Shown here piece by piece: positions 2,828 through 30,000 of a stretch of DNA of 64,000 nucleotides. A program made the position numbers and the translations under genes. A model generated the notes under the pieces. It saw only the letters and a program-made list of their open reading frames with translations, had not been told where the DNA came from and ran no database searches. Origin of the DNA: Sycon ciliatum (taxonomy: Eukaryota > Porifera > Calcarea > Leucosolenida > Sycettidae); assembly GCF_964019385.1 (NCBI RefSeq), contig NC_088654.1, forward strand, positions 3,588,110 through 3,652,109, read 5' to 3'. How positions within the stretch are numbered: the first letter of the stretch is position 1; the number at the start of each line of letters is the position of its first letter.

Positions 2828-3178
2828 ATGGATCTCGAGTCGTTGGCGTTTGCTCGCCACGAGCAGTTGAGGGACATCTGCCGGGGGCTGCATCTCCCCA
2901 CCGGTGGTGCACGCTCTGATCTTGTGCGGCGGATCCTCTCCGTATCGCACAGCAGTGCGCGGATGGATCGGGAGATCGACACTGAGTTCGAGGAGGTGGC
3001 CCCAGATGATGACGAGCTCACTGGCTTACCTGATGCTGCTACCAGGTCGACGCTCCCTTCTCCACCCATGGATTTGTTTCGTCCCGCACCGTCTCCGAAA
3101 CCTCGCTTGCCGAAAGTAAGTGATAATCCTTATTTCGGCAACAGTAATATTGTGAGCAACAAATGGACCGTATGCGTG
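2828..3178 (+). pseudogene. gag, N-terminal fragment (SAP-like start)
   Basis: The ATG at 2828 opens a frame whose first 40 residues (LESLAFARHEQLRDICRGL, then HLPTGGARSDLVRRIL) resemble a SAP motif: two short helices around a Gly-containing turn, as in some DNA-binding proteins. A Pro/Ser-rich linker follows. The frame is then lost at the insertion of the TTAA element at 3183; gag resumes near 7740 and again at 14990. The SAP resemblance is by eye only. The fragment is not functional alone. Confidence 0.6.
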
Positions 3179-3182
3179 TTAA

Positions 3183-6100
3183 AACAAAATGGCGTCACGA
3201 TTTATTGAAAGTGGTATAGTTGGTGGTACGAGTGTTCAAACCCATTTGAACTTCATACTGTTCGTCTTCTTTTTGACATGCTCTCTTTCCATCGTCCTTA
3301 GCTTTTGTTTGTTGAGAGCTGTTTTGGCTTTCTCCTATACCTCTGGGGGATGCCAAGTGATGGTTTTGAGAGGCTGGTGATGGCTGTGAGCGAGAGTTTG
3401 CCGATCGGCGTCGTCCTCGCTATAGCGATGAAAATACTAGTCACTGCGCACCTGGCAGATATCACAACACGTCGGAGCGTCCAGGAGCAAAGGAATCTTG
3501 GGTTTTCACTGGAATCTAGTTCCTCCAGCATCGTGTAGCCCACCGTCGGTGAATGGCGGTCCAGAAAGGTCGAACCTGGTCTTCTGCAGCATCTCGCAGT
3601 CCTGCGAGGCACACTGAATACGCCTGTCATGTATTCTACAAATAAAAATCACGAAGTAGTGGACTTTACAGTGATGAGTCTATCCTGTATGCTGCAAAAG
3701 ACGCAGGAAATGTGACTGGTGTCCGTACACTGGACGCCAATATCATCCCAGTCTTCTCCTGCAGGATCTGTTTGACATTGACATACCGGTATGCAGTGAG
3801 TCGACATTGGCCTGGTTGGGCAGCTATCTGCCTGGGTGGATGTAGCAGGTTTGCATTGGCGCGTCGTCCAGTCCGACTTCTTCTTGTTACTGTGGAGTAC
3901 CGGCAGGGTTTGAGAGGTTGCTCGTGCTGTGAACACATCTCTACTGCCTGTCTCGTCCTGGAAGTGCCGTCTCGCCGCTTCCTTGCTCTACAGTCACGCC
4001 GTTATTTCGCTTTGTTCCGTGGTGCAGCTCAAAACCTGCCCAAACAACTGTGAGCTCGCAACATGGTATGGACAAATTGCACCACTCATGCTGGTTAACT
4101 AAAACCGGGATAGTCGAGTAAGCGAGTTCACTCCCTGGGCCATGGCAAGATCTGTTCAGCGCGGGCTATTCCAACCTCCAAGTGCATAGTCACCGATCGA
4201 TCCATGCGATGGTGGTTGACCTACAAAGAGCCAAGGTCTACGAATACTACTATTGGATGTTGTTGTTGTTGTTGTAGAAGTTTATTTAACGTCGCACCAC
4301 AAACAGGCGATTTCGCCTCCTTTGATACATGTGGACGACAGAAGGAATGAGAGAGGGGGACAGAAGTATGGAGAGAGGAAGGGTAGAAATAAATAAGCAA
4401 TCAACCTCAGGGCTACACCAAAGCAAAAACGGAATGGGAACATACTATATACAAAATAGCTTCATACATATATTGCAAAACACGTTTACTATTCTTCAGT
4501 CCGCTATACCACAGAAACACACTAGCCGAAAAGCATTTAAGCGGAGCCATGATGCGCTTTTAGCAGGGTACAGAACTGAAGGTGGCTGGGCTCGGAACGG
4601 AGATCAGGCGGGAGCTGGTTCCACAGGACTGCGCCGATGAACTGCATGGTCGCTCGACCCGCAGGACCGGGCCAAAATGGTACTCGAACGAGGTGATGTG
4701 CTGCTCCCCGAGTGCGGTCACCAGTAACTCTCACGAAGAAGCTGGTGAAGAGGGAGCTAGCTCGGGAGAACAGACAACGACGGACAAAGATGAGGAGCTT
4801 AATGTTAAACATGTCCTCCAGGGTGGTGAGGCGGAGCTGTTCAAAGATCGGGCTCGTGCGCGACCACGGTGGCAGACCGAAGAAGCCGCGGATAGCGCAC
4901 TTCGTTAGACGTGTGAGGGGCTCCATGTTGCCAATTTGAAGTGACGGATAAAAGGCGTTGGAAGCGTACGACAACCTACCCTGGATCATCGACCTGTAAA
5001 ACAGGATCTTTGACGCCAGGGTGAGGCTTCGGCGGCTCCGCCACAGCGCACCTACTGACTTCCGCACCTGCTGGATTGTGTGATTGACGTGAGGCTCCCA
5101 GGAGAGCTGCCCATCTACCATTACGCCCAGGTACCGCGATTGTTCCACAACTGCAAGGGCTGCATTCCCACAGCGAATTCGAATGTTATCTATGTCAGGG
5201 GCTGGGCCTCTTGGGGTAATCAACAGAGCTTGCGTTTTCTTTTGGTTCAGCATGGGATGCTGTCTACATGCAGTCAACAAAATCAAAGTACCTTAGTATG
5301 CTCCAGAATAGGGCATGTGCATCTATAGCATGACACAACAGGGGTTCTGGCGGCACCTGTCAAACAAGCAGTAGCGACTAGTGCCAGCTACCTATTGGAA
5401 GCTAGCCGCTACAGTCTGTCACTGGAGATAATTATTATGTTCACTGTTTAGACTGAGCACAATCAATGATGCCCAATCAATCTGCCCAATGTGTGTTCTG
5501 TTCCACCTAATTATAACGTCCCATCGCATCAACCCTACTACACGCACATGTCGTCACTCTAGCACGACTTGTGTTATTAATATTGTTTATTTTGATTCAC
5601 ACGATAAAAAGAGCACAATAAACGTTAACTTGACCGAAGGTTAAAGGCGACTGCAGATAGAGGAACACATCGAGTTACAGGTACCGGCATCAATACAGTA
5701 TCAGAGATAAACAAACAAAAATGAGAGGTACGCAGAAAAAACTCTCGTAAGCCCAAGGGGAAGTGGTTGATGAGGGATGAATGCACTCTCCACGCTCATC
5801 TACACTGTTCGTGGAAATGCACACATACATACAATAATATACAACATAGCAATAGCATGCACAGAACCGAACAATTTCATGTTCACACATGCAAGCACAG
5901 ACCTGAACATTAGTACCAAAAGCCGATACAGACAATATCCCCATACACACAGACGCACACACACACACACAATGTCCCATGTATGCGCCCGTGGCGAGAA
6001 AATCACGCAAATCTACAAATGCACTGGATGTGAACCCACAGATTTTCTCTTATAGCAACGATAGCGGATCTGATTCTGAATGAAACACACACACAATACA

Positions 6101-7725
6101 ATCATTGAATGCCCATCCGCAGATGATGGCAGGTCCTGAACGAACAGGCAGTGTTCCAGTGATGGGGAACAGAACTTCGAGTGGCGAGTGAGGTATACAC
6201 ACACACACACACGTGCGTGCGCGGGCACACACTAACGTATTCAGAAATATATTCAACATCGTAGTATTCATTGGTTGGGGAATGGAAAATAGAACATTGC
6301 TGTAGGTTATTGTTGTAAGGACACTGGGAGCACAACAGAAAGGTAAGCAACTTGCTTTGAAGCAAAGAAAGTTATTATTCCACGGATCTCAGAAGGAAGG
6401 AACGTTCCAGAATGCTGCTCTGGCAACAGGCGGCCTGCATGTGCGCGGCCCCTGCAGTCGGTCCAGCTGCCGGCCTTGCAGTGCTGAAAAGAATGTGCAG
6501 TACAGCATGTCACATAGTATCGCAGCCTGGACAAATAGGCGCTGGGAAGTCCTAGTTATGTGCTCACCTACACCACGATGCACCAATCTTCTGAGCTACT
6601 TTGGCAACAACTTTGTCCACTTGAGACTCCCATGGGTGAGCCAGTTGTTGAGGGCTGCACCAAGGTGGACGGCAATGACCGCTGATGGCAAGGCAATCCA
6701 TGACACACAGTCACTAGGGCATCGTCAACATGGCGCTGAGGCTGGATCGATAAAATCAACCCGGCTTTAGGCTGCCGCGGGCCGGTTGACAACGAGGCCG
6801 CTGTCTCGAAGCTAGTCAGTCAGCCTGGTCACCGCCATTGACGAACCAGTCGCCACTGGCAGTGGCGGTAGGTTGTGACAAGTGTGGTGCAATATTGTCA
6901 GCAAATTCAGTACTCAGGATAAGATGAGTGACAAAGGGAACGTTGTGTTTGATAATATTGAAGTGAACAGGGATGATCACAAACCCTGCACGTACTCCAC
7001 CATGAGTTACAAGAAAATTCCGGACTGGACGACGAGCAAACACCAACATTGCTGCATCCAACCAGGCAGATACTATTACGATAGCTGCCAAACCAGGTCA
7101 ATGCCGACCTACTGCATAATGTCAATGTCAAACAGATCCTGCAGGAGAAGACTGGGGTGTTGGCGTCCAGTCACTGAGTGTACAGACACCAGTCACATTT
7201 CCTGCGTCTTTTGCAGCATACAGGATAGACTCATCACTGTAAAGTCCACTACTTCGTGATTTTTATTTGTAGAATACATGACAGGCGTATTCAGTGTGCC
7301 TCGCAGGGCTGCGAGATGCTGCAGAAGACCAGGTTCGACCTTTCTGGACCGCCATTCACCGACGGTGGGCTACACGATGCTGGAGGAACTAGATTCCAGT
7401 GAAAACCCAAGATTCCTTTGCTCCTGGACGCTCCGACGTGTTGTGATATCTGCCAGGTGCGCAGTAACTAGTATTTTCATCGCTATAGCGAGGACGACGC
7501 CGATCGGCAAACTCTCGCTCACAGCCATCACCAGCCTCTCAAAACCATCACTTGGCATCCCCCAGAGGTATAGGAGAAAGCCAAAACAGCTCCCAACAAA
7601 CAAAAGCTAAGGACGATGGAAAGAGAGCATGTCAAAGAGAAGACGAACAGTATGAAGTTCAAATGGTTTTGAACACTCGTACCACCAACTATACCACTTT
7701 CAATAAATCGTGATGCCATTTTGTT
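3183..7725. mobile_element. TTAA-flanked element with ~0.75-kb inverted ends
   Basis: The segment from 3183 to about 3940 recurs as reverse complement from about 6980 to 7725. Identity is high near the ends (AACAAAATGG, then G or A, then TCACGATTTATTG) and falls inwards. TTAA sits outside each end (3179-3182, 7726-7729), the target preference of piggyBac and Kolobok. No transposase was recognised between the arms; the interior holds a LINE fragment and about 1.7 kb of unassigned sequence (5290-6980) with CA-rich tracts. It is probably non-autonomous. The TTAA call rests on one site, and the ends lack the usual piggyBac CCC start, so the superfamily is open. Confidence 0.65.
4256..5286 (-). 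pseudogene. 5'-truncated non-LTR retrotransposon (LINE) RT fragment
   Basis: An open frame of 249 codons on the minus strand (5286-4537) carries the C-terminal part of a LINE reverse transcriptase. After the lost catalytic region come YLGVMVDGQLSW (the conserved LG turn after the active site), a helical thumb-like stretch, and a terminal WNQLPPDLRS motif typical of CR1/L2/jockey-type proteins. Downstream on that strand the element ends in a (CAA)n tail at about 4256-4275. The N-terminal endonuclease and the RT catalytic motif are missing, the usual 5' truncation. It cannot transpose. The exact clade is not determined. Confidence 0.75.
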
Positions 7726-7739
7726 TTAACATGAATATC

Positions 7740-8027
7740 GCGGATTAGATTACAACAGTGAGCAGTCCTTTGCAATGAACCAGTCGCAGTTTCAGGCCAA
7801 TCAGGGTTCTGCTCCTACTACTAGTACTACTACTAGTACTTACCATACGCATGACGCACCTGCACTGGCTTCCGCTAGCCGTCGTACTCGTACTGGGCGT
7901 ACACATAGCCATACTAAGGTTGCATGCTCTACTCCGGAGCCAAAAGCGGTCCACGTCCACCGTCAGCCCGTACATGTCGCTTTTGGTGAGGATCCCGTGT
8001 ATGGAGACCCTAGGCCTAGTAGTAGTA
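7740..8027 (+). pseudogene. gag, middle fragment between two insertions
   Basis: A Ser/Thr/His/Arg-rich frame with an ATG at 7775 (MNQSQFQANQGSAP) stays open up to the 8-bp target site TAGTAGTA at 8020-8027. The same frame resumes at 14990 on the far side of the 7-kb element, which shows that both pieces were one gag reading frame before that insertion. Its link to the N-terminal gag piece at 2828 is out of frame. Confidence 0.6.
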
Positions 8028-9617
8028 CGCGAATGACTGTTGGGACATTCTTCCAAAACATGACGTCACAGAATTCGTAAAAAAAAAGACAACTTTTGTC
8101 GCAAGCGGCTAGCCCTTCGCGCTCGCGAGACTCATCTTGGGCGCGCTCGAGCTGCGAAGCGCGACACACGCGCGCGACCCAAACTGTGTCACGTGTGTGT
8201 CGAATCTGACCGTCATTATGATCGCCTTCGATAAGTATTAGTTTTATTTTCGTTCTACTCGACAATTCCAAAAATCAGTGCCATTGGCTTTAGCTTTGCC
8301 CTTGAACTTGAAATCTCGTGCCTTATTCTTTCCTGGGGACTGGTGTTGGATATTGAACGGGCGGAGTTACCGCCGGGATGATGGATGAAGGAGATGATGG
8401 CCTAAACTTGGCTGCGCGCATTCTCATTTTCGCGTGGCCTGCCACTAGTGTTTCGCAGATTCACAAAGGGTGTCACAGGCATAGCTGGAGGAAGAAAGGT
8501 GAGAGAATCGGTTGCACAGTGCAGATCAACCCAACCATTTGGTTGTTTTAATTTTACTTCGCACAGTCAAACGGGATGACCACCCAATAAAATTTCCGAA
8601 CGTGACATTTTTGTAATTTATTGATTTTCCCGCATTATACCACAGTTTATTGTTCAGGTTATTTCGCTTCAACTTTTGAGGTATGAATTCCTTAACTGCA
8701 GACTCGACATGCAAGCTCCATACTGACCAGGCTGTGTCAACATCAGGTCACGGCTTGTTTGACTTTGTCCGTTAGGCTGTGTTTGCATAGATATTCTGAT
8801 GGCGTCAAAGACAGTTAGAGATTTTGTTGGTTGTGTGTCGGGGGTATTGTCCCCGCCGAAACTGAATGCAAGTTTAAGAAAGACTAGGTCTAGTGAGTTA
8901 TGATCAGAAGTGTCCTGTGGGTCTAGCCCTCAGCCCCTCTGCGGCAAGCAGTAAACTATATTTACACCAAAAAGCGCAAGACAAGACTTGATTTTTTACG
9001 CGGCTCTTTTCGCCATGATAATTATTGTACACGTGTTTTGAAAATTTGAAATACTCATGGCAACTGGTGGGTGAATCATTCAAAAATGCAAACGTGCCCG
9101 CTGTTGAGTGCAGCCATGTGAATCCACACAGTCACTTTTCTCGTAAATCACTCGCCGTAAAACGTGCAAGTGGCTGTCGTGTGAATCGCCTATAACTGAC
9201 TGTCTGCAGTTGTCGAAGTATTTCCCTGCACTCACTGTACTTTGTTAGAAATGTAGTCGATCTACGGAAAGTCTTACGTAAACTGCATGCGCATCTGGGT
9301 TCCGCCATACGGAGTTTTCAAATCATAGCAGACTCAGCGGAGGACGTTCAGGTATTACCGGTATTTTACGACTCCCTGGTCTACAGTACACTACACAGTC
9401 AGTGCAACAAGTGTATGAAAGTCCCGGCCTGGAGCAAAAAAAAGAAAGGAAAAAAGTACGAATAATCAAAAAAATTAATTCAGCCAGCACTCTTGACAAC
9501 CCTACTCCTTTTTGCCCGAGGACGGATTTTTTAATTTTTCGAAAAATACAGACGACTCCTTACCTGTTCATTGGTTGAGGGAAAGATGCAAACGGGAAAA
9601 CGTCTGAAGAAAAAATT

Positions 9618-9692
9618 GACTGGCGCCACCAGGACTCGAGCCAGGCGCCTTCACTTGAGGGCAGCAGTGCTCTAACCCTTCTTTACCGTTGA
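9618..9692 (-). tRNA. degenerate tRNA-like sequence
   Basis: Read on the minus strand, a D-arm-like GGGTTAGAGCA is followed by an anticodon-arm-like section and a B-box-like GGCTCGAGTCC, ending TGGCGCCA. The 5' acceptor strand does not pair with the 3' end. It is probably a tRNA-derived SINE remnant or tRNA pseudogene rather than a working gene. Confidence 0.3.
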
Positions 9693-9798
9693 GGTTCAGT
9701 GTAAAAAGGTGTGACTAACTGTACTGTTTACAATGCGGCCGTGTGTGTGTGTGTGTGTGTTTGTGCGTGTGTGTGCGCGTGTTTGTTGTGCACTGCAG

Positions 9799-9952
9799 GT
9801 TTTCTGGCTGATTCCTCCGACCCCAATCAATCTTCAGATCTATGAGCAGTGGGTGTTGTCGGGTAAACAGCAGGATATATTCCTGGGTGACATGGTCGAG
9901 AAGTGTGCCCGCGTCGAATTGAAACCAGGCTGGACTTTTGTCATTCCTACTG
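9799..9952 (+). pseudogene. KDM2/KDM7-like JmjC demethylase, exon A (captured)
   Basis: An open exon with acceptor ...CACTGCAG and donor G|GTGAGT. It encodes [18 protein letters not shown], then [12 protein letters not shown], then [20 protein letters not shown]. This is the part of the JmjC domain between the first and last iron ligands in KDM2/KDM7 histone lysine demethylases (Fe(II)/2-oxoglutarate oxygenases acting in the nucleus on H3K36, H3K9 or H3K27 methyl marks). FWLIPPT and SGKQ.DIFLGD favour KDM2. It ends in phase 1 and joins exon B in frame. The exon with the HxD iron motif and all other domains (CXXC, PHD, F-box/LRR) were not found nearby. It sits inside a DNA transposon, so it is a captured gene fragment and probably makes no working enzyme. 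Confidence 0.85.
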
Positions 9953-9967
9953 GTGAGTGAGATTGTG

Positions 9968-9987
9968 TAAGTGTGTGTATGTATGTA

Positions 9988-10074
<87 letters not shown>

Positions 10075-10090
10075 GTGTGTGTAAGTGTGT
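9968..10090. repeat. (TG)n microsatellite in the JmjC intron
   Basis: TG run with GTATG variants just after the exon A donor; a second TG tract lies at 10187-10310. Frames across both are repeat artefacts. Confidence 0.95.
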
Positions 10091-10183
10091 GTATGTATGT
10101 GCCAGCTAGTTCGGTTGGTTGGTGCCTTTATGCCTGATTGTGTTGGGTCTGTTGCCAACGGGCTCGGCTGCTTGAAGGTGTAA

Positions 10184-10226
<43 letters not shown>

Positions 10227-10606
10227 ATGTATGTGTGTGTTTGTGTGTACGTGTGTGCATGTGTACGCGCGTGTGTGTGTGTGGTTGTGTGTGTGTGTGT
10301 GTCTGTGTCTGGGTTGCCACACCTGCCGACATGTCAGTAGCCTGCTGATTTTGGAGGCATTTCACGACCCGCCGACGATTGACCTTTTCCTGCCGACAAC
10401 AGACATGAAAATGTCCCGTTCTGACGTTATGCTTCGTTTAGAACTAAATTAGAACATAATAGAAGGCATGTTCCAGATTTTTGCTCTTACTGGTCATCGT
10501 GTTTGTTTTCATTGCTCTCTCCTATGGTGCTAAGTGAAATCATTATTCTGTCTCGGGGGAAAATCTGATAGCTCAATCTGAGTTTCACGCAGACCCGTGA
10601 TTTTTT

Positions 10607-11259
10607 AAAGGGGAAGTATACCCTAAAATCAAATTTTCACCAGTTGTAGTCTTCGGGGTGCTGAGTCGAATGGTCTTGGTCCGAGGAAGCTGCGACGCTC
10701 CCTTCCTTCTTTTTTCCCAATCGAACTCGCGCACTTCCACCGAAACTGGGTGACTGCGCCCTACTAGATGGGGATTTGTATGCAAAATGTCACTAAAAGC
10801 GCCATGTCATTCTTATAAAAGCACGGATGACCGCGATTGGCCCATGTGTTGTAGTCGTTTGGACGCTGAGTCGACTAGTTTTGGTCCGAAAAAGGCTGCG
10901 ATGCAGCGTTCCTCCTTTATTCCCAATCGAACATGGTTGAACAAGCGGTCACGTGCTCCAGGGTGCCCAACTCACCTGGTCACCGCGCCAGCAGGCGACA
11001 ACTTTCACACCAAGGTTCAACTCGAGTGACAGGACTGCACCCAAAAAAGGTCAAACAGGCTAGTAAGTTGTACCCTGCAGGCACGGTGACTGGTGTACGC
11101 GGGAGCATGTGACCGCTTGTTCAACCATGACTCAGCGTCTAAAAGACTACAACATAGGAGGAAGGGAGCGTCTCAGCTTCCTCGGACCAAGACCATTCGA
11201 CTCAGCACCCCGAAGACTACAACTGGTGAAAATGTGATTTTAGGGTATACTTCCCCTTT
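10607..11259. mobile_element. palindromic (foldback) MITE, AAAGGGGAAG family
   Basis: The left arm starts AAAGGGGAAGTATACCC and the right arm ends GGGTATACTTCCCCTTT. The arms are near-perfect inverted copies over about 300 bp, including the box GTTGTAGTCTTCGGGGTGCT. It lies in the intron between the two JmjC exons. The same family occurs at 29342, 32917, 35320 and 36163 and in the duplicated block. Confidence 0.85.
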
Positions 11260-11376
11260 AACAGTGCGCTTTGTGTGCATGTGTATACTGGGGTTACTAT
11301 GATGGGGGTCTGGGGGCAAAAAGCCCCCAGATGATGCATTTTATTTTTTCATCCTACTGATATTTGGCCAAAGTGA

Positions 11377-12486
<1,110 letters not shown>

Positions 12487-12489
12487 AAT

Positions 12490-14397
12490 TATCCATATAA
12501 AAATCGCTCTGTGAGCGGTTCTGAAAAACCTTTACTGGCGCTGCCCCGTCGTAAAAGTAAGAAATTAAAACTGGCCCATTGTCCCCCCAAATGTGAACTG
12601 ATCCACCTAAATCGGGAATGACGGGACCCGAACGCACCAGTAGCACGAGGTCGGGAGGGCACAGGATCACAGCACATCATAGGGTAACACCATCACTAGT
12701 ACATGGTATCAGTGGCAGTGTAACTTTGCTAGTACAAGTACACATAGTTACTTCCATCGGATATCCAACATGGGAGTTCATCGACGACCATGGCCTGTGG
12801 ACCAGCGTCCCCAGCTGCATCCACAGGTAGGAACCTGATTGATTGATTGATTGATTTTATTTGGATTTGCGAGACCAAACGAGCAGGAGTGCTCAATAAC
12901 AGGGTAGCGAATGGTTGAGTTGTGCTATGTGACAATGTAGTGTGTGCGGAGGCCCAATACGATGTAAGGGGATGGGAGGAGAGAAGGCCAGCGGAGAGTC
13001 AAACTCAGAAGAGGGAGGAGAGAATAACTGAAGTACACATTTACTGTGCGAATTCAAATAAACCAGACAAACAGCAAAACGAGTACACAACTCACGAGAA
13101 TAAATAGGACTGGAGCACAGAATTGAACTGCTGAAGTACACAGCTGACGAGAATAAAGACAGGAGCACAGAAATGAACGGAAGGCAGTCTACGAAGTGGT
13201 GGTACCACCGGTGCATGCACCACGGTACATTATCACATTATCGGCTTTGCAAAGTTCGTGGGTACTGAATACCATGGTATGGCCAACTGTGTAGCAGTCT
13301 ACAACGACTTACGTGTAGGGAATGGCAGCTTGGCGGAATGCTGGGATGTTGCCCATAGCTCGCACCGTGTCAGGTATATGGTTCCATAACAGGCAACCGC
13401 GAGATGCCGGTCGGCATTGGCCTGCTCGGCTTCTGGCTATTGGTTGTTGTAGGTCCAGACTGCGCTGAAGGCGAGTTGCTCCGCAGTTGCGAACAAACAG
13501 TGCCTGCAGAGCAGGACTGGCACGGTTATGAACGCACCGCCATACCAGCACGAGCAGTTTCTGGCGATATACCTCGTCCATGCGATAAACAGAGAGCCTC
13601 TCCAAGAGATCACTGGCCCTGGTAAATCGTGGTCGTCCGAACACCGCCCTTGCTGCGCGGTTTTGGGCCACCTGCAAGCGATTTAGCTGGTTGTGGGTCA
13701 AGCCGGAGCCATATGCTGACGATCCATATATCAAATCCGGCATGATGACAGATAGGAAGTACTTGCTTCAACTAGCTAGAGTGAGGCAGCGTCGCACCCG
13801 CCACAGACTACCGATCTTCCTAGCAGTGGGTGAGATGCACCGGTCAACTTGCGGTTGTCAGGTCATTCGTTCATCGATCAAGACGCCGAGGTATTTCGCG
13901 CTGGTGGTGTGCGGAAGCACATCATTTCGACAGCGTACACCCACGTCCGGCTGCTGCCCACTGCTGCTGGTAAAAACCAATACATTACTCTTCTTTGCAT
14001 TTAATACAAGACCACGAGCGTCCAGCCAACTTGAGAGGGAAGTAACCGCCAAGCTGAGCGCATCAGACACCTCTTGCGCTGTCCGTCTTGCACATGTCAG
14101 GGCGATGTCATCCGCAAACTGCAGTGATGATGCCGGCGCAGATTCCGAGGGGATATCTCTGGTGTATATGGAGAACAGCATGGGTCCTAGTACAGAGCCC
14201 TGCGGCACACCACAAGTGCACCCTCGTGCTACTGCTGCGTTCGGGTCACGTCATTTGCGATTTAGGTGGATCAGTTCACATTTGGGGGTACAATGAGCCA
14301 GTTTTAATTTCTTACTTTTACGACGGGGCAGCGCCAGTAAAGGTTTTTCAGAACCGCTCACAGAGCGGTTCAAGTTTAAATATATGGATAATGTAAA
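12490..14397. mobile_element. inverted-repeat element nested in the 7-kb transposon
   Basis: About 165 bp at 12490-12655 recurs inverted at 14216-14397. Shared motifs include CGCTCTGTGAGCGGTTCTG, itself a small hairpin, and CCTTTACTGGCGCTGCC. The outermost bases read TTATCCATATA on both sides. The interior is almost wholly a LINE fragment on the minus strand. No clear target duplication was found, so the exact ends are uncertain. Confidence 0.6.
12837..14214 (-). pseudogene. LINE reverse transcriptase fragment, frameshifted
   Basis: Minus strand. 14208-13858 encodes the RT core: PQGSVLGPMLFSIYTRDIP (motif B region), then LQFADDIAL (catalytic FADD, motif C), then KYLGVLIDERM. After a stop near 13858 the protein resumes in 13743-13309 with the thumb and C-terminal region and a WNHIPDTVR motif, as in CR1/L2-like LINEs. 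The 3' end is a (TGAT)n-type tail at 12838-12858. It is 5'-truncated, lacks the endonuclease and is inactive. It belongs to the same broad LINE type as the fragment at 4256-5286 but is clearly diverged from it. Confidence 0.78.
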
Positions 14398-14989
14398 TAA
14401 TACTCAATATGCTACCTGTGGTGTGGTGCAAGCTCAGCACTGAGCTAAATCAAACATACAGCCTACACAGCCTCTAATGGCCCTCTATACAGTGCTGCGA
14501 TGGCAGAACTTCTGAAGTTCACATCACCTTTCTTCCTCCAGCTATGCCTGTGACACCCTTTGTGAATCAAACACTACAGGCCACGCGAAAATGAGAATGC
14601 GCGCAGCCAAGATTAGGCCATCATCTCCTTCATCCATCATCCCGGCGGTCACTCCGCCCGTTCAATATCCAACACCAGTCCCCAAGAAAGAATAAGGCAC
14701 GAGATTTCAAGTTCAAGGGCAAAGCTAAAGCCAATGGCACTGATTTTTGGAATTGTCGAGTAGAACGAAAATAAATAATCGAAGGCGATCATAATGACGG
14801 TCAGATTCGACACACACGTGACACAGTTTGGGTCGCGCTCGTGTGTCGCGCTTCGCAGCTCGAGCGCGCCCATGATGAGTCTCGCGCTTGCGACAGGCTA
14901 GCCGCTTGCGACAAAAGTTGTCTTTTTTTTACGAATTCTGTGACGTCATGTTTTGGAAGAATGTCCCAACAGTCATTCGCGTAGTAGTA

Positions 14990-16306
14990 CGCACGAACTG
15001 AGTGATCAGGCGCAGGCCAGCACTAGTCGTACACGTACACCCGCAGGTCCGCATGCCCCGCACGTGCACATCGATCCTGCTGCTGAGAACCCTGAGCTAG
15101 CCTGAGGCTGAGGCTGAACACGAACAGCGTTCCGCCACCGATGTCGATGTCGATGTCGATGTCGACTCGCCGTCCCAGCTGTCGATGCTCACGCAGTTGG
15201 TCACGCAAATGGCGCAAGTGCAACTCACTCAGGCCACACGGCGATTCTCTCAGAAGGTGCCACTGGCTAAACTGCACCCTGGGGACGATGTTGAGGCATT
15301 CCTCACCAGTTTCGAACGATCCATGCGGGCGTACAGAGTTCCTCCGGACGATTGGGTCTATTTGCTAAGCCCCCAGCTGACTGACAAGGCCTTGTTGGCA
15401 TACACGGAACTTGCCTCCACTGAGGCTGACAGCTACGACCGCGTGAAGGAGGCCATTCTCCATCGCTATGCCGTTACCCCCGAAACGAGCCGCCGTAAAT
15501 TTCGGGGCACTACGCTGCAGAGCTCGGAGTCCATGATTGACTTCGCCGTCCGTGTCCGTGACACTGGCAGTCGTTGGCTAAGCCCCGCATCCTCGCGCGA
15601 AGCCATATGTGAGTTGATCCTACTGGAACAGTTCTTGTCTGCGCTTCCTTTTGGTTTACGCACTTGGCTGCGGGAACGCAAACCGTCGTCCCTCGACCAG
15701 GCTGCTTCGCTAGCGCAGGACTATCTTGATGCACGGGATCGCGTACAGGAGCCCAGCAGTGGTCGTCTCAGCAGCGGCAGGGAACAGTCTCTTGTCTGCC
15801 ACATTTGCCAGCAGCGTGGCCACATGGCCAGGGATTGTTCTAAGCGACGGGCACCATTGCCGAACACTGACGCACGTGCCCAGGTGCAGGGGTCATTTGC
15901 GTCACCCCGAGACCGGACGTCCGAGTCATCCAACCTTGCTCGAGTTCGCTGGGCTGCACCAACCTCAGGCTCAGCGCGGGACCGGCCAGTATCTTCCCCA
16001 GCTAACCCCAGTCAGACCCACTTGTCATCTGACCGCCCAGTGACTTCTCGTCCTGACCGTCCCACACCACCACCGAGACGCCCCATGTCGCAGCCGCGTT
16101 GCTATAATTGTCGTGAGCTGGGACATATTGCTATTAAGTGTCCGAATCACACTCGCACCGCTCTGTTTTCCAGCCCAGATCAGGAAGTCCAAGATGCTGG
16201 TACAGTTCATTTGCTGCCGGATGAGGATGATCTGCTGGGTGAAGCATATTTCTGCTCACCCCCTCCACCTGTAGACTCTGGTCGGTTGCCCCCCCCCCCC
16301 CGCTAA
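14990..16306 (+). pseudogene. gag, main fragment: SCAN-like capsid and two zinc knuckles
   Basis: The gag frame re-enters at 14990, shifts by one base near 15100 (a GAGGCT repeat), and is then open to 16306; the long part has an ATG at 15185. Residues about 94-185 of that part look like a SCAN domain: ELILLEQFLSALPFGLRTWL, then RERKPSSLDQAASLAQDYL. Known work traces the SCAN domain of vertebrate zinc-finger proteins to Gmr1-like gag, so this resemblance supports the family call. Two CCHC knuckles follow at about 205-218 (CHICQQRGHMARDC) and 306-319 (CYNCRELGHIAIKC), which bind genomic RNA. A run of 13 C (16289-16301) precedes the stop. Gag is a pseudogene here because insertions removed its start. 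Confidence 0.85.
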
Positions 16307-16319
16307 TCCCAGCGCCGCC

Positions 16320-19300
16320 ATGGGACCAGCACCGGAGTACACCGTCGCTGGGTACGTGAATGGTACCCACGTCCCGAGCATCGTTGTTGATACCGCGTGT
16401 GGCCGCACCATGGTACACAGGACCTTGGTCCGGGACCAAGATTTGTCTGGTGAGACTACCTCCATTCGTTGTGCCCACGGTGATGTGGCCAGTTACCCCA
16501 TGGCCGATCTGACCATCACCATCGACGGCATGGTGTACTATGTCAAGGCAGCAGTGTCCGAGCACCTGCCCCGTCACGTGTTGCTTGGCCGTGATGTGCC
16601 CCACATACATGAGTTGGTCCGGCTGTGTCAGCCAGCCGCCACGGACGTCTTGGTCTCTACGCGTGCACAGGCCAAGGCTTCACCTGAGTCGACTGGTGCT
16701 GCTGGTTTGCACGCCAACTTCCCGTTCGAGGATGAACTGTTTGAGGAGTTGGCCTCGAATGCAGCTTCTTTGCGTGCACCGCCGGCGGACCTATCTAGCA
16801 CACCGGAGGTGACACCGCCACCTATCTCTGCACCCGATTTGCCAGATGCCACCCGTTTCGCCGACGAGCAACGGCGTGACCCATCTCTTAGCCCATGTTG
16901 GGACTATGCTACTGGCCGACACAAGACGCCCGTCAATGGCAGTACCTTCTGTGTTCGCCAGGGCCTCCTCTACCGGGAATACTCACCGGATGGTGAAGCG
17001 GGGATGGACACCACCAGCCCCTACTACCGCCTTCAGTTGGTTCTGCCCACGGAACGGAGATCCACCATTCTGCACCTCGGCCACACCGTCCCCATGGCTG
17101 GCCACATGGGACAGGCGAAGACATCCCAGAGGATTCTTCTCCGTTTCTGGTGGCCGACGATTCTTCAAGATGTCGCACAGTATTGTTCCGCCTGTGAACC
17201 ATGTCAGCGCACCGCCCGTGTTCTGCGTCATGATCGGGCACCACTTATTCCTCTTCCTGTTATTGGCGAGCCCTTCCGGGTGGTAGCTATTGACATTATC
17301 GGCCCATTGCAGCGTACGCAGTCCGGCAAGAAGTACATCCTCACCTTGGTGGATTATGCAACCCGCTATCCGGAGGCAGTCGCTCTTTCCAATATTGAGT
17401 CGACTACCGTGGCTGATGCGTTGATCTCCATCTTTTCCAGAGTAGGACTGCCAGACAAAATCCTCTCCGACCAAGGCTCCAACTTTACGTCGGACGTCCT
17501 CCGACAAGTTGCTGCTTTACTCCGTATCCAGCTTACCACATCCACTCCGTACCATCAACAGACCAATGGCCTCGTCGAACGGTTCAATGGTACCCTCAAG
17601 GGTATGCTTCGTCGGTTTGCTGCTGATGCGCCACGAAGTTGGGACGAGGTGCTCCCATATGCTTTATTTGCGTATCGAGAGGTGCCTCAAGCCAGCACTG
17701 GTTTCTCACCATTTGAGCTCCTGTACGGCCGCCATGTCCGCGGCCCGCTGGATCTCGTGCGCGATGCTTGGGCTCAGCCAACGGAGGAGCTCCGGACCAC
17801 TACTGCCCAGTTCGTCCTCACCATGCGGGACCGGCTTGAACGCATATCGACTGAGGCTGGCTCCCACCTTGCCACCGCGCAGCAACGGCAGAAGGCCTAC
17901 TATGACCGCCTGAGTCGGGAACGCACATTTGCTCCGGGAGACGAGGTACTGCTCTTGCTTCCGGCTTCGGCTCGCAAAATGGAAGCCGTGTGGCAAGGCC
18001 CTTACCCTATTCGGCGTAAGGTCGACGAGGTCAATTATGAGATTGACATGGGACCCCACCGCACGAAGCGATATCGGGTTTTCCACATCAACCTCCTGCG
18101 GCGGTTTCGCCGGCCCCAGCTCGCGGCCTTCACCATTCCTATGGCGGAGGACGACCCAGACACGGAGCTGCTGCTTGACGACTGCTCCCCTCTACACGTT
18201 GATGGTGGCCGTCCTACCATTAACCCCGACCTTTCGCCGGACCAGCGGCAACAGCTCGACATGCTGCTATCGGAGTTTGAGGATACCCTCTCACCCCAGC
18301 CTGGCCGGACGACCGTGGTGGCTCACTCCATCCACACTGGCGACGCCACACCCATTCGTTCCCGGCCATATCGTCTTGCCGCTGCGCACCATTCTGTTGT
18401 CCGCGATGCCGTCGACGAAATGCTGGACATGGGCGTCATACGCGCATCCCGCAGTCCGTGGTCTTCACCCGTTGTGCTTGTGCCGAAGAAGGACGACTCG
18501 ATCCGCTTCTGTGTCGACTACCGTGCCCTTAATCAGGTGGCCCAGTTCGACTGTTACCCGATGCCGCGGGTGGACGAGATCCTCGACTCTGTCGGGTCTG
18601 CCCAGTTTCTCTCCACCCTTGACCTGTCCAGGGGGTATTGGCAGATCCCTCTGGCAGAGGATGCGTGTGCCAAGACGGCCTTCACCACACCGTTTGGCCT
18701 GTACGAGTTCACTATGATGCCATTCGGGCTCCATGGAGCGCCTGCAACATTTCAGCGTTGCATGGATACCGTCTTGGCTGGTCTCCCGTTTGTCCTGGCG
18801 TATTTGGACGATGTCGTCATCTTCAGTCCGACTTTTGAGGACCATCTTGTCCAGCTCCGCCACGTTCTTGGTCGCCTTCACGACGCTGGGCTCACTGTGA
18901 AGCCGAAGAAGTGTTTATTGGGTATGGTCGAAACTCCCTTCCTTGGCCATGTGATTGGTCATGGTCGGGTGCGTGCGGACCCTGGCAAGTTGCAAGCCAT
19001 CGACGATTGGCGACAGCCCACGACCAAGAAGGCCCTGCGTTCCTTCCTGGGGTTGTGCGGCTACTATCGTCGCCTCATTCCTCACTTTTCAACCATCGCG
19101 GAGCCCTTGGTAGCCATGACGTCGAAGGGCCACCCCAACACCCTCCACTGGACGACCTCAGCTGCACAGGCCTTCGTTCAATTGAAAGGCCTCCTTGTCT
19201 CCGACCCGGTCATTGTTGCGCCGAACTTTGCTGCGGAGTTCTACCTGCACACGGACGCGTCCGATGTTGGTTTGGGCGCTGTCCTGACCCAGCGTAATGC

Positions 19301-19607
19301 CCAGGGCACCGAACACCCCGTAGCATATGCCAGTCGCAAGCTCCTCGACCGTGAACGCCGTTATGCCACCATCGAGAAGGAGTGTCTCGCCCTCAAGTGG
19401 GCCATTCTCAAATTCGCTCCGTATCTCCTCGGCAGACGCTTCACCTTGATTACCGACCACCGCCCTCTTCAATGGATCGCTCAGCATCATAGTGGCAATG
19501 CTCGGGTGGCCCGATGGGCCATTGCTCTGCAGCCGTTCGCTTTCACCGTTGTGCACCGGCCTGGCGCTCTCAATGGCAACGCCGATGCATTGTCCCGCCA
19601 GATGTGA
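16320..19607 (+). CDS. pol: Pol polyprotein, order protease-integrase-RT-RNase H
   Basis: One uninterrupted frame of 1095 codons, starting 14 bases after the gag stop in another frame. Domains in order: aspartic protease with DTA at 24-26 and LLGRD near 88; integrase with an HHCC zinc motif (about 252-295), the catalytic triad D325, D384, E420 (exact 35-residue spacing of a DD35E core) and a GPY module (WQGPY, 558-562); reverse transcriptase with LDLSRGYWQI (about 767) and YLDD (828-831); RNase H with D979, E1019, D1046 and D1089. Usual Ty3/gypsy pol has integrase last. Here it precedes RT, as in Ty1/copia elements and the Gmr1-like gypsy group. All catalytic residues are intact. Without gag it could act only in trans. 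The ATG at 16320 is the first in frame; use of the C-run upstream for frameshifting is possible. Confidence 0.93.
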   Translation: MGPAPEYTVAGYVNGTHVPSIVVDTACGRTMVHRTLVRDQDLSGETTSIRCAHGDVASYPMADLTITIDGMVYYVKAAVSEHLPRHVLLGRDVPHIHELVRLCQPAATDVLVSTRAQAKASPESTGAAGLHANFPFEDELFEELASNAASLRAPPADLSSTPEVTPPPISAPDLPDATRFADEQRRDPSLSPCWDYATGRHKTPVNGSTFCVRQGLLYREYSPDGEAGMDTTSPYYRLQLVLPTERRSTILHLGHTVPMAGHMGQAKTSQRILLRFWWPTILQDVAQYCSACEPCQRTARVLRHDRAPLIPLPVIGEPFRVVAIDIIGPLQRTQSGKKYILTLVDYATRYPEAVALSNIESTTVADALISIFSRVGLPDKILSDQGSNFTSDVLRQVAALLRIQLTTSTPYHQQTNGLVERFNGTLKGMLRRFAADAPRSWDEVLPYALFAYREVPQASTGFSPFELLYGRHVRGPLDLVRDAWAQPTEELRTTTAQFVLTMRDRLERISTEAGSHLATAQQRQKAYYDRLSRERTFAPGDEVLLLLPASARKMEAVWQGPYPIRRKVDEVNYEIDMGPHRTKRYRVFHINLLRRFRRPQLAAFTIPMAEDDPDTELLLDDCSPLHVDGGRPTINPDLSPDQRQQLDMLLSEFEDTLSPQPGRTTVVAHSIHTGDATPIRSRPYRLAAAHHSVVRDAVDEMLDMGVIRASRSPWSSPVVLVPKKDDSIRFCVDYRALNQVAQFDCYPMPRVDEILDSVGSAQFLSTLDLSRGYWQIPLAEDACAKTAFTTPFGLYEFTMMPFGLHGAPATFQRCMDTVLAGLPFVLAYLDDVVIFSPTFEDHLVQLRHVLGRLHDAGLTVKPKKCLLGMVETPFLGHVIGHGRVRADPGKLQAIDDWRQPTTKKALRSFLGLCGYYRRLIPHFSTIAEPLVAMTSKGHPNTLHWTTSAAQAFVQLKGLLVSDPVIVAPNFAAEFYLHTDASDVGLGAVLTQRNAQGTEHPVAYASRKLLDRERRYATIEKECLALKWAILKFAPYLLGRRFTLITDHRPLQWIAQHHSGNARVARWAIALQPFAFTVVHRPGALNGNADALSRQM

Positions 19608-21200: not shown

Positions 21201-23075
21201 TTATGTCACTTCATAACCCAGCAAAAACTTGCGCTGGTGGCGGCACTTTGATACTAACTCGCTCCTTTTGTTAAGTGAGATGGCATTTGGAGTGGTGAGG
21301 ATGTGAAACTTCTCCGTGAGGCACAGGCTGCATCGTTTGCTGATGTTGCTGTAGGATGGGGCGCGATCTTTTATTTTCCAGCTGATGTCAAAGTTGCGCT
21401 GGGCGTTCTGAAGGTCCCAAATATGCTTTGAGAGCTCCGTCGATGTAGAGTATTTCTCATGCCGGAATGTTGTGGAGTGGTTGTTGTAGCGCGATTTAAA
21501 GGTGTTGGCCGTCAGTCCGGTGTATGTCTTGGTCTGGGGAGATGACACATGTGCCTGGTATATGACGTCAGTCGACTGGCATTCCCCCTTGAGCGGGCAG
21601 GATGGCTTGACCCGGCAGTTACAAGGCTCAACGGGCGGCCTTGGCTGGAGCTTCGCAGCGTTGTGACCTTTGATGATGGAGGCTACGTTTCTCATGCAGC
21701 TGTAGCTGATTTTTATCTTATTTTTGTTGAAGATCTTATTCAGTGCCGAACCCTTTGGAAAATGCTTTTTGATGAGGCCCAGGAACCTTGCACCAACGTT
21801 GGTTCTGACCGTTGTGCTATAGGGCGGGTTAAACCAAATCACATCTCTGCTACGCCGCTTCCTTCTTTTCCTTTGTTCCGGTTCGTCACTGTATGCCATG
21901 GTTCTTGGATGTCCGCTTGCTGCCAGGGCGTCCTCATATACGGGCTTGGCATCATTAAAGACGTCTTCATTACAAGATATCCGCTGAAGACGCTTGTTAA
22001 CGCCAATCGGGATCTGCTTCAATACTTGTGGCGGGTGGCAGGAGCTGACATCAACATATACTGGAGTGCTATTTGGTTTTCTGTACGGCTGAAAGGTACC
22101 GGTGTTGAGGTTCATTGATATGTCGAGGTAATCGACGACCTTTCTGTTAGCGTCTATTGTAATCTTCAGGCCGTGTGTTTGGAACACCTGGATTATCTCC
22201 TTACGCAAGCGGTCAGCTCCATGGCCGGTGGCATCCTTGACTATGGCCAGACCATCGTCTCGGTACAACCCGACACATTCCTCGCCTAGAAGTGGGCGGA
22301 GCTTGCTGAGCATGAAGGCTCCTACAAGCTCACAGGCCTCAGCTCCATCGTATGAGCCCATAGTTACGTCGAAAGATCCATCCTTCTCCTTCTTTACCCA
22401 CGCTTGTCCTTTGTGGAATAACAGCGATTTACGGCAGTGCAATATGATGTCTGTTTCTTTTTCGGATATTGTGGCAAACGTCTTCGCGTAGTCGAGAGCT
22501 TGCAGCAGGAGGTCTTCCGTAATAGACGGGTAGAAGTCCACAATGTCAAACACGATGAATGTGAATCTTGATTTGTTTTCGATCGCCTTGAACCAATTGA
22601 TCACTTCTGAGGTGTTCTTCCACAAATTCTTGCAGACATCGTTGCGCATGGGGCCGATGATACCGTCGATTATGTCCTTGCTGACCACGCCCACCTCTGA
22701 CTTCGCTGGGTTTATCAGCCTGCATGGCAGGCTCTCTGCAAAGCCATCTTTATGGTCCTTTAAAGTTACAAACGCTTGCGCCTTGGCGAGACACTCCATT
22801 CGGTCTTCCAGTTGGAGGTCGACGGCAATCGCTTTTGCTTCAGCGTTGATGTCCGCGTATGTATTGTCGGGAGCGAGCTTGTATTTTTTCGTTATGTTTT
22901 CGCGCATCAGCTTTTCATACTGGGGGACTGGCACACGGTACAAGTTTCGAGTCTTGTCTGCTGGTACAACTATCTCGGCGCCGTCCTTGATCAGCTTGAT
23001 GTCCTTCCTCATTTTGTCCTGGAGCTGGTAGCCTTTAAATCGCGCTACAACAACCACTCCACAACATTCCGGCAT
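21201..23075 (-). CDS. Penelope-like reverse transcriptase with C-terminal GIY-YIG endonuclease
   Basis: A 624-codon frame on the minus strand. The first ~18 residues come from the inverted junction at 23031, so the native N-terminus is lost. Motifs by residue: ADKT 39-42, LKDHKD 105-110, PCRLINP 117-123, RT motif A FIVFDIVDFYPSI 173-185, catalytic YRDD 271-274, DYLDIS 315-320. A Cys-rich linker (CNCR at 485, CPLKGEC at 493) leads to the GIY-YIG nuclease, VIYQA at 504 and YTGLT at 518, followed by a CSLC pair near 582. RT plus C-terminal GIY-YIG is the canonical layout of endonuclease-bearing Penelope-like elements, which prime reverse transcription at a nick made by that nuclease. There are no stops or frameshifts, so the catalytic parts look intact. 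Confidence 0.9.
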   Translation of the reverse strand: MPECCGVVVVARFKGYQLQDKMRKDIKLIKDGAEIVVPADKTRNLYRVPVPQYEKLMRENITKKYKLAPDNTYADINAEAKAIAVDLQLEDRMECLAKAQAFVTLKDHKDGFAESLPCRLINPAKSEVGVVSKDIIDGIIGPMRNDVCKNLWKNTSEVINWFKAIENKSRFTFIVFDIVDFYPSITEDLLLQALDYAKTFATISEKETDIILHCRKSLLFHKGQAWVKKEKDGSFDVTMGSYDGAEACELVGAFMLSKLRPLLGEECVGLYRDDGLAIVKDATGHGADRLRKEIIQVFQTHGLKITIDANRKVVDYLDISMNLNTGTFQPYRKPNSTPVYVDVSSCHPPQVLKQIPIGVNKRLQRISCNEDVFNDAKPVYEDALAASGHPRTMAYSDEPEQRKRRKRRSRDVIWFNPPYSTTVRTNVGARFLGLIKKHFPKGSALNKIFNKNKIKISYSCMRNVASIIKGHNAAKLQPRPPVEPCNCRVKPSCPLKGECQSTDVIYQAHVSSPQTKTYTGLTANTFKSRYNNHSTTFRHEKYSTSTELSKHIWDLQNAQRNFDISWKIKDRAPSYSNISKRCSLCLTEKFHILTTPNAISLNKRSELVSKCRHQRKFLLGYEVT

Positions 23076-23333
23076 GAGAAATACTCTACATCGACGGAGC
23101 TCTCAAAGCATATTTGGGACCTTCAGAACGCCCAGCGCAACTTTGACATCAGCTGGAAAATAAAAGATCGCGCCCCATCCTACAGCAACATCAGCAAACG
23201 ATGCAGCCTGTGCCTCACCGAGAAGTTTCACATCCTCACCACTCCAAATGCCATCTCACTTAACAAAAGGAGCGAGTTAGTATCAAAGTGCCGCCACCAG
23301 CGCAAGTTTTTGCTGGGTTATGAAGTGACATAA
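23032..23333 (+). pseudogene. GIY-YIG end of the inverted Penelope-like copy
   Basis: Plus-strand copy of the last ~100 codons of the Penelope-like ORF, from inside the GIY-YIG domain (FKSRYNNHSTTFRHEKYST onward) to the same stop. It is identical in protein to the minus-strand copy and lacks the RT. It is the right arm of the element's inverted repeat. Confidence 0.85.
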
Positions 23334-23543
23334 CGTGTATGACGTGCTATGGGTTTGGCGTGTGTGTGTATGTGTGTATGTGTGTGTGTCTGTGTATGTG
23401 TGTGTGGTGCGTGTGTGTTTGGCGCGCGCGCGTGTGTGTGTGTGTTTAGGTGCGATAATGCGGGAGTGTGGAGAGTGTGAGAACGAGAGGCTGTGTGTAG
23501 GTATGTGTATGTGGTGCATGCGTGTGTGGTGCGTGTGTGTTTT

Positions 23544-23585
<42 letters not shown>

Positions 23586-23795
23586 TGTGCGTGTGTGTGT
23601 GTGTTTAGGTGCGATAATGCGGGAGCGTGGAGTGTGTGAGAACGAGAGGCTGTGTGTATGTGTGTGTGTGGTGCATGTGTGTGTTTTGGTGCGTGTGTGT
23701 GTTTGGTGCGTGTGTGTGTGTGTGTGCGTGCGCATGTGTTTAGGTGTGATAATGCGGGAGTGTGGAGTGTGTGAGAACGAGAGGTTGTGTGTGGA

Positions 23796-23898
<103 letters not shown>

Positions 23899-24441
23899 AT
23901 GAGTGTGCGTGTTCATGTTTCACCCAGCACCTGAGATGTTGATTCTGGCACGTCAGAGCGTACTGCCTCTGGGAGGTGTTGAATGATTATCATATTGTCT
24001 GCACTGAATTATTCTATCTCCTCTGCTTGCCTTCATATACCTGCGTTTTTTCTAATCTCCTTATGTTGTCTGATGATTGGTTTTTGCCATGAAACTCTGA
24101 GTTACAACAAAAACAGCCCTATATACTTCCTTTTGTGTACCTCTTGCGTACTACGCTCTGCCCATTCCGGGCATTTGAGCACTATTGCAGGTTAAGGCGC
24201 ACACCCTCTGTATACAGTAACTATAACCTTCACATCCTCATATTTACACCTGTCCATATATGACATTAGAATAGCATGCTGCGTACTACTTCCCGTACTA
24301 CCGGTACCTTTTCTAGTACTCACATATTGTACAACTTTACACACCAAGATAAAATAACAAGGATGACAGCCCTTCAGGGTTAGTTGTCGGTTAGCCGGAC
24401 AAGAGTGGGTTGTTGGTGTGTCCTCCCCTAGGCCCTTCACA

Positions 24442-24476
24442 GAAACATAGAAGAGATCAAGCAGATGGAATCAAGA
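24442..24476 (+). CDS. transmembrane exon, second part (cytoplasmic start), after the retrotransposon
   Basis: 24442-24446 is the duplicated target GAAAC. The exon then continues the frame interrupted at 1970 with HRRDQADGIK and reaches the donor A|GTAAGT at 24477. It ends in phase 1, and the leftover A joins the GG opening the exon at 30001 to make an Arg codon. In the uninterrupted gene this would be the basic start of the cytoplasmic tail. With the LTR element present, the exon has no acceptor of its own. Confidence 0.68.
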
Positions 24477-28172: not shown

Positions 28173-28179
28173 TCTGAGC

Positions 28180-29335: not shown

Positions 29336-29341
29336 CAAAAG

Positions 29342-29808: not shown

Positions 29809-30000
29809 TCCCCCCCCCCCCCCCCCCCACCACTACCACCACCACACACACACACACCACCACCACCACCACCACCACCACCACACACACACCACCACCA
29901 CCACCACCACCACACACACAAGGCACATTGGCTGCCGAAGGTTTTCCACGCCTCATCATGAACTTGATTCTGCGCTGCTGTATGTGTTTGCCAACTGCAG

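Follow-up and report, generated by a model that had tools for sequence, protein, structure and literature searches.

How exons of a chromatin regulator come to lie inside an inverted-repeat transposon that is itself inserted in a retrotransposon is the question raised by one locus of the sponge Sycon ciliatum. The window (the whole stretch of 64,000 nucleotides analysed here) had been described, from its sequence alone, as containing a JmjC demethylase fragment captured by an element with long terminal inverted repeats (TIRs), a process held to be known from plants. The capture itself is supported because the exons are shared by many copies, the copies are bounded by target-site duplications, a parental locus exists in the same genome, and introns have been kept; the restriction to plants does not stand, since 370 Pack-TIRs are on record from animals (Tan et al. 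2021, PMC8277862). Our account as a whole, to which we assign a probability of about 0.87, is a Pack-TIR capture of a segment of the host gene KDM2, amplified by transposition and eroded by deletions.

Structure of the element in the window

The element proper occupies positions 8029-14980 (6952 bp; first bases GCGAATGACTG), with a left TIR at 8029..8502 on the plus strand, opening with GCGAATGACTGTTGGGACA, and a right TIR at 14524..14980 on the minus strand. Aligned with the flanking 10 bp counted in (8019-8502 against 14524-14990), the two arms are 93.8% identical over 484 alignment columns, which bears out the TIR length of ~0.47 kb first estimated. By contrast, the 8-bp duplication and the span of 8028..14981 given in the sequence-only reading have to be corrected: the target-site duplication is 10 bp long, GTAGTAGTAC, and lies, unstranded, at 8019..8028 on the left and 14981..14990 on the right. 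A duplication of this length explains why the base adjoining GCGAATG varies from copy to copy; since this base belongs to the duplication and not to the TIR, an 8-bp duplication, as of the hAT or P superfamily, was dropped.

Behind the left TIR, a 5' body (8503..9353, plus strand) that comes from the transposon or from the KDM2 5' region shares ~92-98% identity with many other copies, and ends at an internal-deletion junction (9353..9356, plus strand) where other copies carry up to ~2.9 kb, including exons that correspond to KDM2A-like residues ~106-230, the HxD exon among them. Two KDM2 exons follow on the plus strand, one at 9799..9952 (VFWLIPPT...FVIPT), identical in amino acids to the parental exon, and one at 11417..11531 that contains the third-ligand motif GWIHAV, as initially noted. 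Read directly, both have the AG/GT borders and compatible phase that had been claimed for them. Joined, they encode 90 aa, all of which match human KDM2A at an E-value of 1.3e-40, against 2.7e-27 for PHF8; the first assignment to a 'KDM2/KDM7-like' protein is thus right as to JmjC identity and can be narrowed to KDM2-type. The frames, described as intact, are so as far as the last codon of the second exon, which is one base shorter here than in seven other copies read at this point. The site occupied in several other copies by the next KDM2 exons (VPQKFRFPFF... and an exon labelled helical-domain), at 11540..11703 on the plus strand, holds none here. Having lost the HxD exon by internal deletion, the window element taken alone is an unremarkable deletion product.

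Two unstranded insertions are nested within it. The intron between the two exons holds a short inverted-repeat, MITE-like element (10605..11261), which has relatives at other places in the window. The second insertion (12488..14392) has arms of ~150-170 nt and encloses a reverse-transcriptase fragment on the minus strand; the same open reading frame (ORF) in another copy, C8_14, matches RVT_1 at an E-value of 1.8e-05, short of the curated cut-off. All of the other full copies with exons (13/13) match at least one of its arms, so this insertion appears to be older than most of the amplification.

Downstream of the element lies a gag-like ORF of the host site (15101..16306, plus strand) with matches to SCAN (3.5e-19) and CCHC knuckles (8.9e-12); a pol ORF comes next, at 16275-19607. 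The proposed insertion into a retrotransposon is upheld, but when the flanks are joined minus one duplication they are open across the junction in a frame different from that of the SCAN/CCHC ORF, which suggests a frameshift in this retrotransposon copy.

Distribution of the family in the genome

With two mismatches allowed, the 20-mer at the TIR end was found at 77 places in the genome and the reversed-pattern control at none, so the matches are not due to chance; none was found in viral contigs. We counted 23 TIR pairs and analysed 15 paired copies, including the one in the window. Exact 10-bp duplications bound 11 of the 15, one more matches at 9/10 positions, and three have mismatched flanks, compared with four identical cases in a control of 210 mismatched pairs. 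The target preference is palindromic, GTA....TAC.

KDM2 exons are present in 14/15 paired copies, the exception (L009) having paired TIRs without exons, so that the result named at the outset as damaging to the capture, a family otherwise devoid of the exons, was not obtained. One KDM2 exon was also seen at a sixteenth, partly fetched locus (L028). A tblastn search with the exon pair gave 52 places, 47 of which belong to the family, and an exon matching residues ~128-165 was found at 33 places. Subsets of at least eight exons differ from copy to copy; a search of 15 sequences, namely the cluster stretch C8_29 and 14 paired copies, gave no complete set of eight. The mean K2P distance between copies is 0.014 (14 copies).

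The parental KDM2 locus

On the plus strand of C8, at ~4.37-4.39 Mb, there is a parental KDM2 locus in which HxD is intact, a gene that the sequence-only reading had advised locating. Introns kept in the copies are homologous to the parental introns (hence no retrocopy), and one stretch of the locus (L037) holds the HxD and VFWLIPPT exons. The locus also has a CXXC match, ~1.3 kb upstream of which is an exon shared with the element; a CXXC/PHD query matched three places, none of them in family copies, which stop before the CXXC exon. At the 3' side, homology to the parental stretch L063 ends at one common base in seven of eight matching copies and earlier in the eighth. Parent-copy distances are 0.042-0.072 substitutions per site in 6/8 copies, while two copies give 0.007 and 0.013, over 154 bp only, which counts against an old split. 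Much of the parental stretch obtained, including its 5' part, reads N, and no 5' border of the capture was found; the TIR 20-mer is not found at the locus among the matches listed, although a TIR might still lie in the part that is masked. JmjC genes on C2 were rejected as parents, being KDM7-like with 47-49% identity over the first exon.

Loss of an iron ligand and coding evolution

The parent and one KDM7-like gene have CAC as the HxD codon; at the 23 other places, all family copies found with it, it is CGT (22) or GGT (1), and the first iron-binding His is accordingly replaced by Arg in 22 copies and by Gly in one. The family resembles KDM2A/KDM2B (JHDM1) in exon sequence and in the WIHAV third-ligand motif, and differs from them in that the HxD-bearing copies lack this His and that no CXXC/PHD match occurs in the family. 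The JmjC iron triad HxD...H of a functional KDM2 is absent from these copies, and the window copy has no HxD exon at all. Because the first iron ligand is gone in 23/23 copies found, any protein translated from them is unlikely to act as a catalyst.

Among copies, the exons vary at 9 synonymous and 25 replacement positions and by 2 stops, against neutral expectations of 10.1, 24.8 and 1.1; per-exon pN/pS scatters from 0.45 to 2.55, and frame-breaking indels are present as well as stops. Between the parent and the family consensus, the aligned exon parts show eight synonymous differences and one replacement, the latter at the first iron ligand. This 8:1 ratio points to more constraint than expected if the stem had been wholly neutral, and the parental branch accounts for part of it. 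Of the roles first suggested for the exons, debris best fits the coding evidence, given neutral variation among copies, and the captured exons would seem to drift as passengers.

Origin of the family and alternative explanations

We propose that a long-TIR family took up, at the DNA level and with introns included, the JmjC part of a host KDM2 together with the stretch that follows it, possibly by template switch or gap repair; that the first iron ligand of the captured copy had already changed from His to Arg when amplification began; and that a transposase, presumably acting in trans, moved copies to many places, with 10-bp duplications at the points of insertion. Through internal deletions, and through insertions nested in them later, the copies would then have come to differ in their exon subsets; the window copy, one such deletion derivative, retains two of the eight or more exons captured.

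Alternatively, the JmjC exons could be a conserved gene of the transposon's own, as with the TET/JBP genes reported in KDZ transposons, and could serve to counter host chromatin silencing. Some KDM2 exons are indeed found in nearly all full paired copies, and the differences between parent and family are mostly synonymous; such an origin is nevertheless highly improbable in view of the scattered exon subsets, the neutral variation with stops and broken frames, the universal loss of the first iron ligand among copies found, the intron-bearing parental locus and the paired-TIR relative without exons. It is very unlikely, though somewhat less so, that the gene originally captured was a KDM2 paralogue under constraint but devoid of demethylase activity, a reading that would draw on the 8:1 ratio and on the position of the one replacement at the first iron ligand. 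In that case the family would have spread either a KDM2-like decoy that binds substrate or chromatin, or small RNAs aimed at KDM2, and the transposon would benefit from the weakening of the host factor.

If a KDM2 locus containing inverted repeats had been copied by ordinary segmental duplication, without transposition, this would account for the interval C8:1.96-2.90 Mb, where 11 of the 23 HxD copies lie on the same strand and eight TIR ends are found on one strand and none on the other among the matches listed, and also for the equal spacing of the TIR pairs at C5:6.33 and 6.40 Mb. The C8 cluster of HxD copies probably did spread in this way, but distinct duplications refute it for the dispersed copies, and as an explanation of the family it has very little to recommend it against the exact 10-bp duplications, the palindromic target preference and the position of the window copy inside a retrotransposon. 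Dispersed copies could conceivably lower parental KDM2 expression through piRNAs or through KDM2 transcripts in sense or antisense orientation: the copies are numerous and the exon at 9799-9952 is identical in amino acids to the parent in 8/19 copies, which makes cross-targeting possible, and antisense Pack-TIR transcripts have been reported in humans (PMC8277862). No sequence feature seen here demands RNA action, and we consider this explanation unlikely. The Pack-TIR capture remains the account we prefer.

Comparison with known transposons

Plant Pack-MULEs are non-autonomous elements with long TIRs, long duplications and captured fragments of genomic genes. The present family shares all of these features, but its host is an animal and no MULE transposase is tied to its TIRs: 41 matches to MULE transposase exist in the genome, none inside the 23 TIR pairs and the nearest 73 kb off, so that the superfamily and any transposase partner are putative. 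No transposase was recognised by eye among the ORFs listed inside the elements, nor by Pfam among 10 ORFs of copy C8_14. Open frames of 911 and 1728 aa beside two C8 copies were also discarded; around the first, the frames are mainly simple-repeat and no ORF of such length occurs in the 4.5 kb covered. P elements make 8-bp duplications, as do hAT elements, which have short TIRs; the 10-bp duplication and 0.47-kb TIRs do not fit hAT, and the P superfamily (Galileo-type) was set aside on its duplications of 7 or 8 bp.

In animals, the elements resemble reported Pack-TIRs in having a host gene segment between TIRs, a parent elsewhere (here partly masked), retained introns, and distinct duplications at several loci. 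The best reading is that the family is a large and numerous example of a kind already described in animals (Tan et al. 2021). In that survey, captures are mostly single-copy and only four multicopy cases are given in reference genomes; Ssk-FB4 of Drosophila has four copies, and FB4 has duplications of 9-10 bp, TIRs of ~700 bp and a transposase that is unknown (PMC8277862). The present family comprises at least eight exons of a chromatin regulator at tens of places; its copies have undergone internal deletions independently and have in common the loss of a catalytic residue. Full-text literature searches found no report of KDM2 exons captured by an inverted-repeat transposon and, for transposon capture of a JmjC gene, matched only a work on maize small RNAs. 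As one assembly contains the parental locus, the shared breakpoint and the shared inactivating change together, the family offers a well-resolved system for studying the mechanism of capture and the reshaping of captured genes by internal deletions, and for asking whether a host chromatin gene is itself affected, via small RNAs, by its dispersed copies.

Mutator-like elements have 8-11-bp duplications and TIRs commonly of hundreds of bp (PMC6446971), ranges into which the 10 bp and ~0.47 kb observed here fall, and by structure the family is best read as a non-autonomous, Mutator/Foldback-like Pack-TIR. Turmoil-1 of C. elegans is likewise an animal transposon holding host protein-coding sequence, although its captured pieces lie within the inverted repeats and those described here in the interior (PMC2572040). 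Galileo, a Foldback-like member of the P superfamily, also has long TIRs, and its GTAGTAC target consensus resembles GTA....TAC, but its duplications are 7 bp as against 10 bp here (PMC2775673).

The element and its insertion site

The element spans window positions 8029-14980 and is bounded by terminal inverted repeats (TIRs) of ~0.47 kb, whose arms, aligned over 484 columns together with the flanking 10 bp, share 93.8% identity. On either side of it (8019-8028 and 14981-14990) lies a 10-bp direct repeat, GTAGTAGTAC; the 8-bp duplication of the sequence-only reading, TAGTAGTA, is only the inner part of this repeat. The window occupies C13:3588110-3652109 in a 538-Mb assembly of 313 contigs, probably that of an animal, judging by its size, spliced genes and KDM2 and KDM7 relatives. 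When this assembly was searched with a 20-mer of the TIR, 77 places were found at up to 2 mismatches, 53 of them exact; a reversed-pattern control found 0. In the duplication analysis, covering 15 paired-end copies (that of the window included) out of 23 TIR pairs counted, the 10-bp flanks are identical in 11 copies, agree at 9 of 10 bp in one further copy and are mismatched in three (C1_76, C1_92 and C3_7), and wrong pairings of flanks gave identity in 4 of 210 cases. Across 31 distinct end flanks the target site is near-palindromic (GTA....TAC).

The element is inserted in a retrotransposon, whose 5' part it interrupts, as had been proposed from the sequence: adjoining the insertion are an ORF that matches SCAN and CCHC domains in Pfam (15101-16306) and a pol ORF (16275-19607) with the integrase ahead of the reverse transcriptase. 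A SCAN-like capsid together with this domain order fits Gmr1-type elements. After removal of one duplication the joined flanks are open across the junction, in a frame that differs from that of the SCAN/CCHC ORF and so points to a frameshift in this copy of the retrotransposon.

KDM2 exons across the family

Once joined, the two exons of the window copy (9799-9952 and 11417-11531) match human KDM2A at E 1.3e-40, with all 90 residues covered, versus 2.7e-27 for PHF8; either exon alone matches no Pfam family at E 0.01. Besides this copy, 14 family copies were fetched paired in full and another, L028, in part. The sequence-only reading had asked whether other copies carry the exons, and they do: 14 of the 15 full paired copies hold at least one KDM2 exon, as does L028, and none was found in L009, a copy of 1.5 kb. 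A 5' body (8029-9353) and a 3' body (11540-14980) are common to most copies, with gaps that differ from copy to copy; the window copy has one deletion at 9353/9356, a point at which others hold up to ~2.9 kb, and another at 11540-11703.

Across copies, the exons correspond to KDM2A-like residues ~106-128, 128-165, 166-199, 197-230 (the HxD exon, bearing the first iron ligand), 230-281, 281-319, and 320 onward with a long tail, in a numbering based on the human sequence. An eighth is labelled the "helical-domain" exon by eye and by its position in the parental locus; all eight together occur in none of the family sequences searched for exons. Genome-wide counts of these repeats are lower bounds: the two-exon query matches at least 52 places (four lie in KDM7-like genes on contig C2 and one in the parent, leaving at least 47), the exon for residues ~128-165 at least 33, and that for ~106-128 at least 28. 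Ends of the family's TIRs (~165 bp) also flank mutually unlike interiors at L009 366-1584 and L028 385-1366, and the cargo of the family may accordingly extend to other sequences.

Parental locus and border of the capture

A parental KDM2 locus was found on contig C8. A CXXC query matched best at C8:4387449 (58% identity) and more weakly at two other places; the stretch holding the best match, L063, opens with the helical-domain exon ~1.3 kb ahead of it. Some 15 kb upstream, on the same contig and strand, the stretch L037 contains the HxD exon and the VFWLIPPT exon, the latter identical in amino acids to that of the window; from order and strand we infer that the exons of both stretches form one gene, part of the locus reading N. 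Eight copies match L063, and seven of them lose homology at one base (L063:891; C4_37 does so earlier), beyond which the parent is a simple CT repeat and is matched by no copy. Capture evidently occurred at the DNA level, introns included.

Lost iron ligand, selection and age

A search of the genome for the HxD-codon pattern (up to 3 mismatches) found 25 places. The codon is CAC (His) in the parent and in one KDM7-like gene; at the remaining 23 places it is CGT (Arg) in 22 cases and GGT (Gly) in one. The first iron ligand, the loss of which would abolish JmjC activity, is absent in 23/23 family copies found, a pattern most simply explained if the change predated amplification. The interval C8:1.96-2.90 Mb holds eleven of these 23 copies, each on the minus strand, and its eight TIR ends likewise share one strand; this uniform orientation suggests that the cluster arose by tandem segmental duplication of a single insertion-bearing unit. 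Clusters of KDM2-exon copies occur also at C14:1.44-1.99 Mb and C13:27.7-28.4 Mb.

With indels excluded and only exons present in three or more copies considered, the dispersed copies show 36 distinct exon substitutions (9 synonymous, 25 replacement, 2 stop), against a neutral expectation of 10.1, 24.8 and 1.1, and the clustered copies (C8, C14 and C13 at 28 Mb) show 28 (8, 20 and 0), against 7.8, 18.9 and 1.3; the expectation assumes a transition weight of 4, and transitions make up 18 of the 36 and 13 of the 28. Pairwise pN/pS per exon ranges from 0.45 to 2.55. Over aligned parts, the parent differs from the dispersed consensus by 8 synonymous and 1 replacement changes (expected 2.5 and 6.2), and from the clustered consensus by 2 and 2; there are more replacements at the edge of one exon. 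Because the parental branch must contribute to it, the 8:1 skew argues only weakly that the captured copy was constrained. The exons are most likely drifting passengers.

Copies differ from one another by a mean K2P of 0.014 over a 0.57-kb 3' stretch (14 copies, 91 pairs; C1_77, in which the stretch is interrupted, was left out), and from the parent by 0.042-0.072 substitutions per site in the 3' intron in six of eight copies. The two others, compared over only 154 bp, stand at 0.007 and 0.013, contrary to a clearly older split; weighed together, the values suggest an amplification that is young compared with the divergence from the parent.

Mobilisation and relation to known elements

No transposase was recognised by eye among the listed family ORFs, and ten ORFs of the family copy C8_14 matched no transposase family in Pfam, their matches being a reverse transcriptase that fell short of the curated cut-off and two weak, unrelated families; in nested inserts the longer ORFs are retroelement-like by eye. 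Of 41 MULE matches in the genome, many of which have open frames, none falls within the 23 TIR pairs, and the closest lies 73 kb from one. MULEs have duplications of 8-11 bp and long TIRs (PMC6446971), a description that the 10-bp duplication and long TIRs of the family fit; in the same features it resembles FB4 (PMC8277862). The superfamily may provisionally be called MULE/FB4-like by duplication and TIR length.

Tan et al. (2021; PMC8277862) count 370 Pack-TIRs across 100 animal genomes, four of them multicopy, and give the Ssk-FB4 family four copies; Turmoil-1 of C. elegans (PMC2572040) is an earlier animal case. This kind of element is therefore already known, and what is unusual here is the extent of the capture (no fewer than eight exons, along with introns), how many genome places hold it, and a catalytic residue lost in common. 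The capture first noticed from the sequence is real and mostly explained.

Other features of the window

Directly upstream of the element, a second long inverted repeat (3171-3915 and 6977-7737, 92%) encloses a fragment that is reverse-transcriptase-like by eye (4540-5292). ORFs at 21201-23102 and 40160-41836 look Penelope-like by eye, each pairing a reverse transcriptase with a GIY-YIG-like end downstream of it, and the former has no Pfam match at E 0.01. Positions 23032-34167 and 41535-51275 form a recent direct duplication (~10 kb, 99.9% identity), the second duplicate being without 25811-27200, a segment holding a 267-aa ORF that has no Pfam match at E 0.01. A minisatellite of period ~64 bp (62356-63965) has long open frames on both strands.
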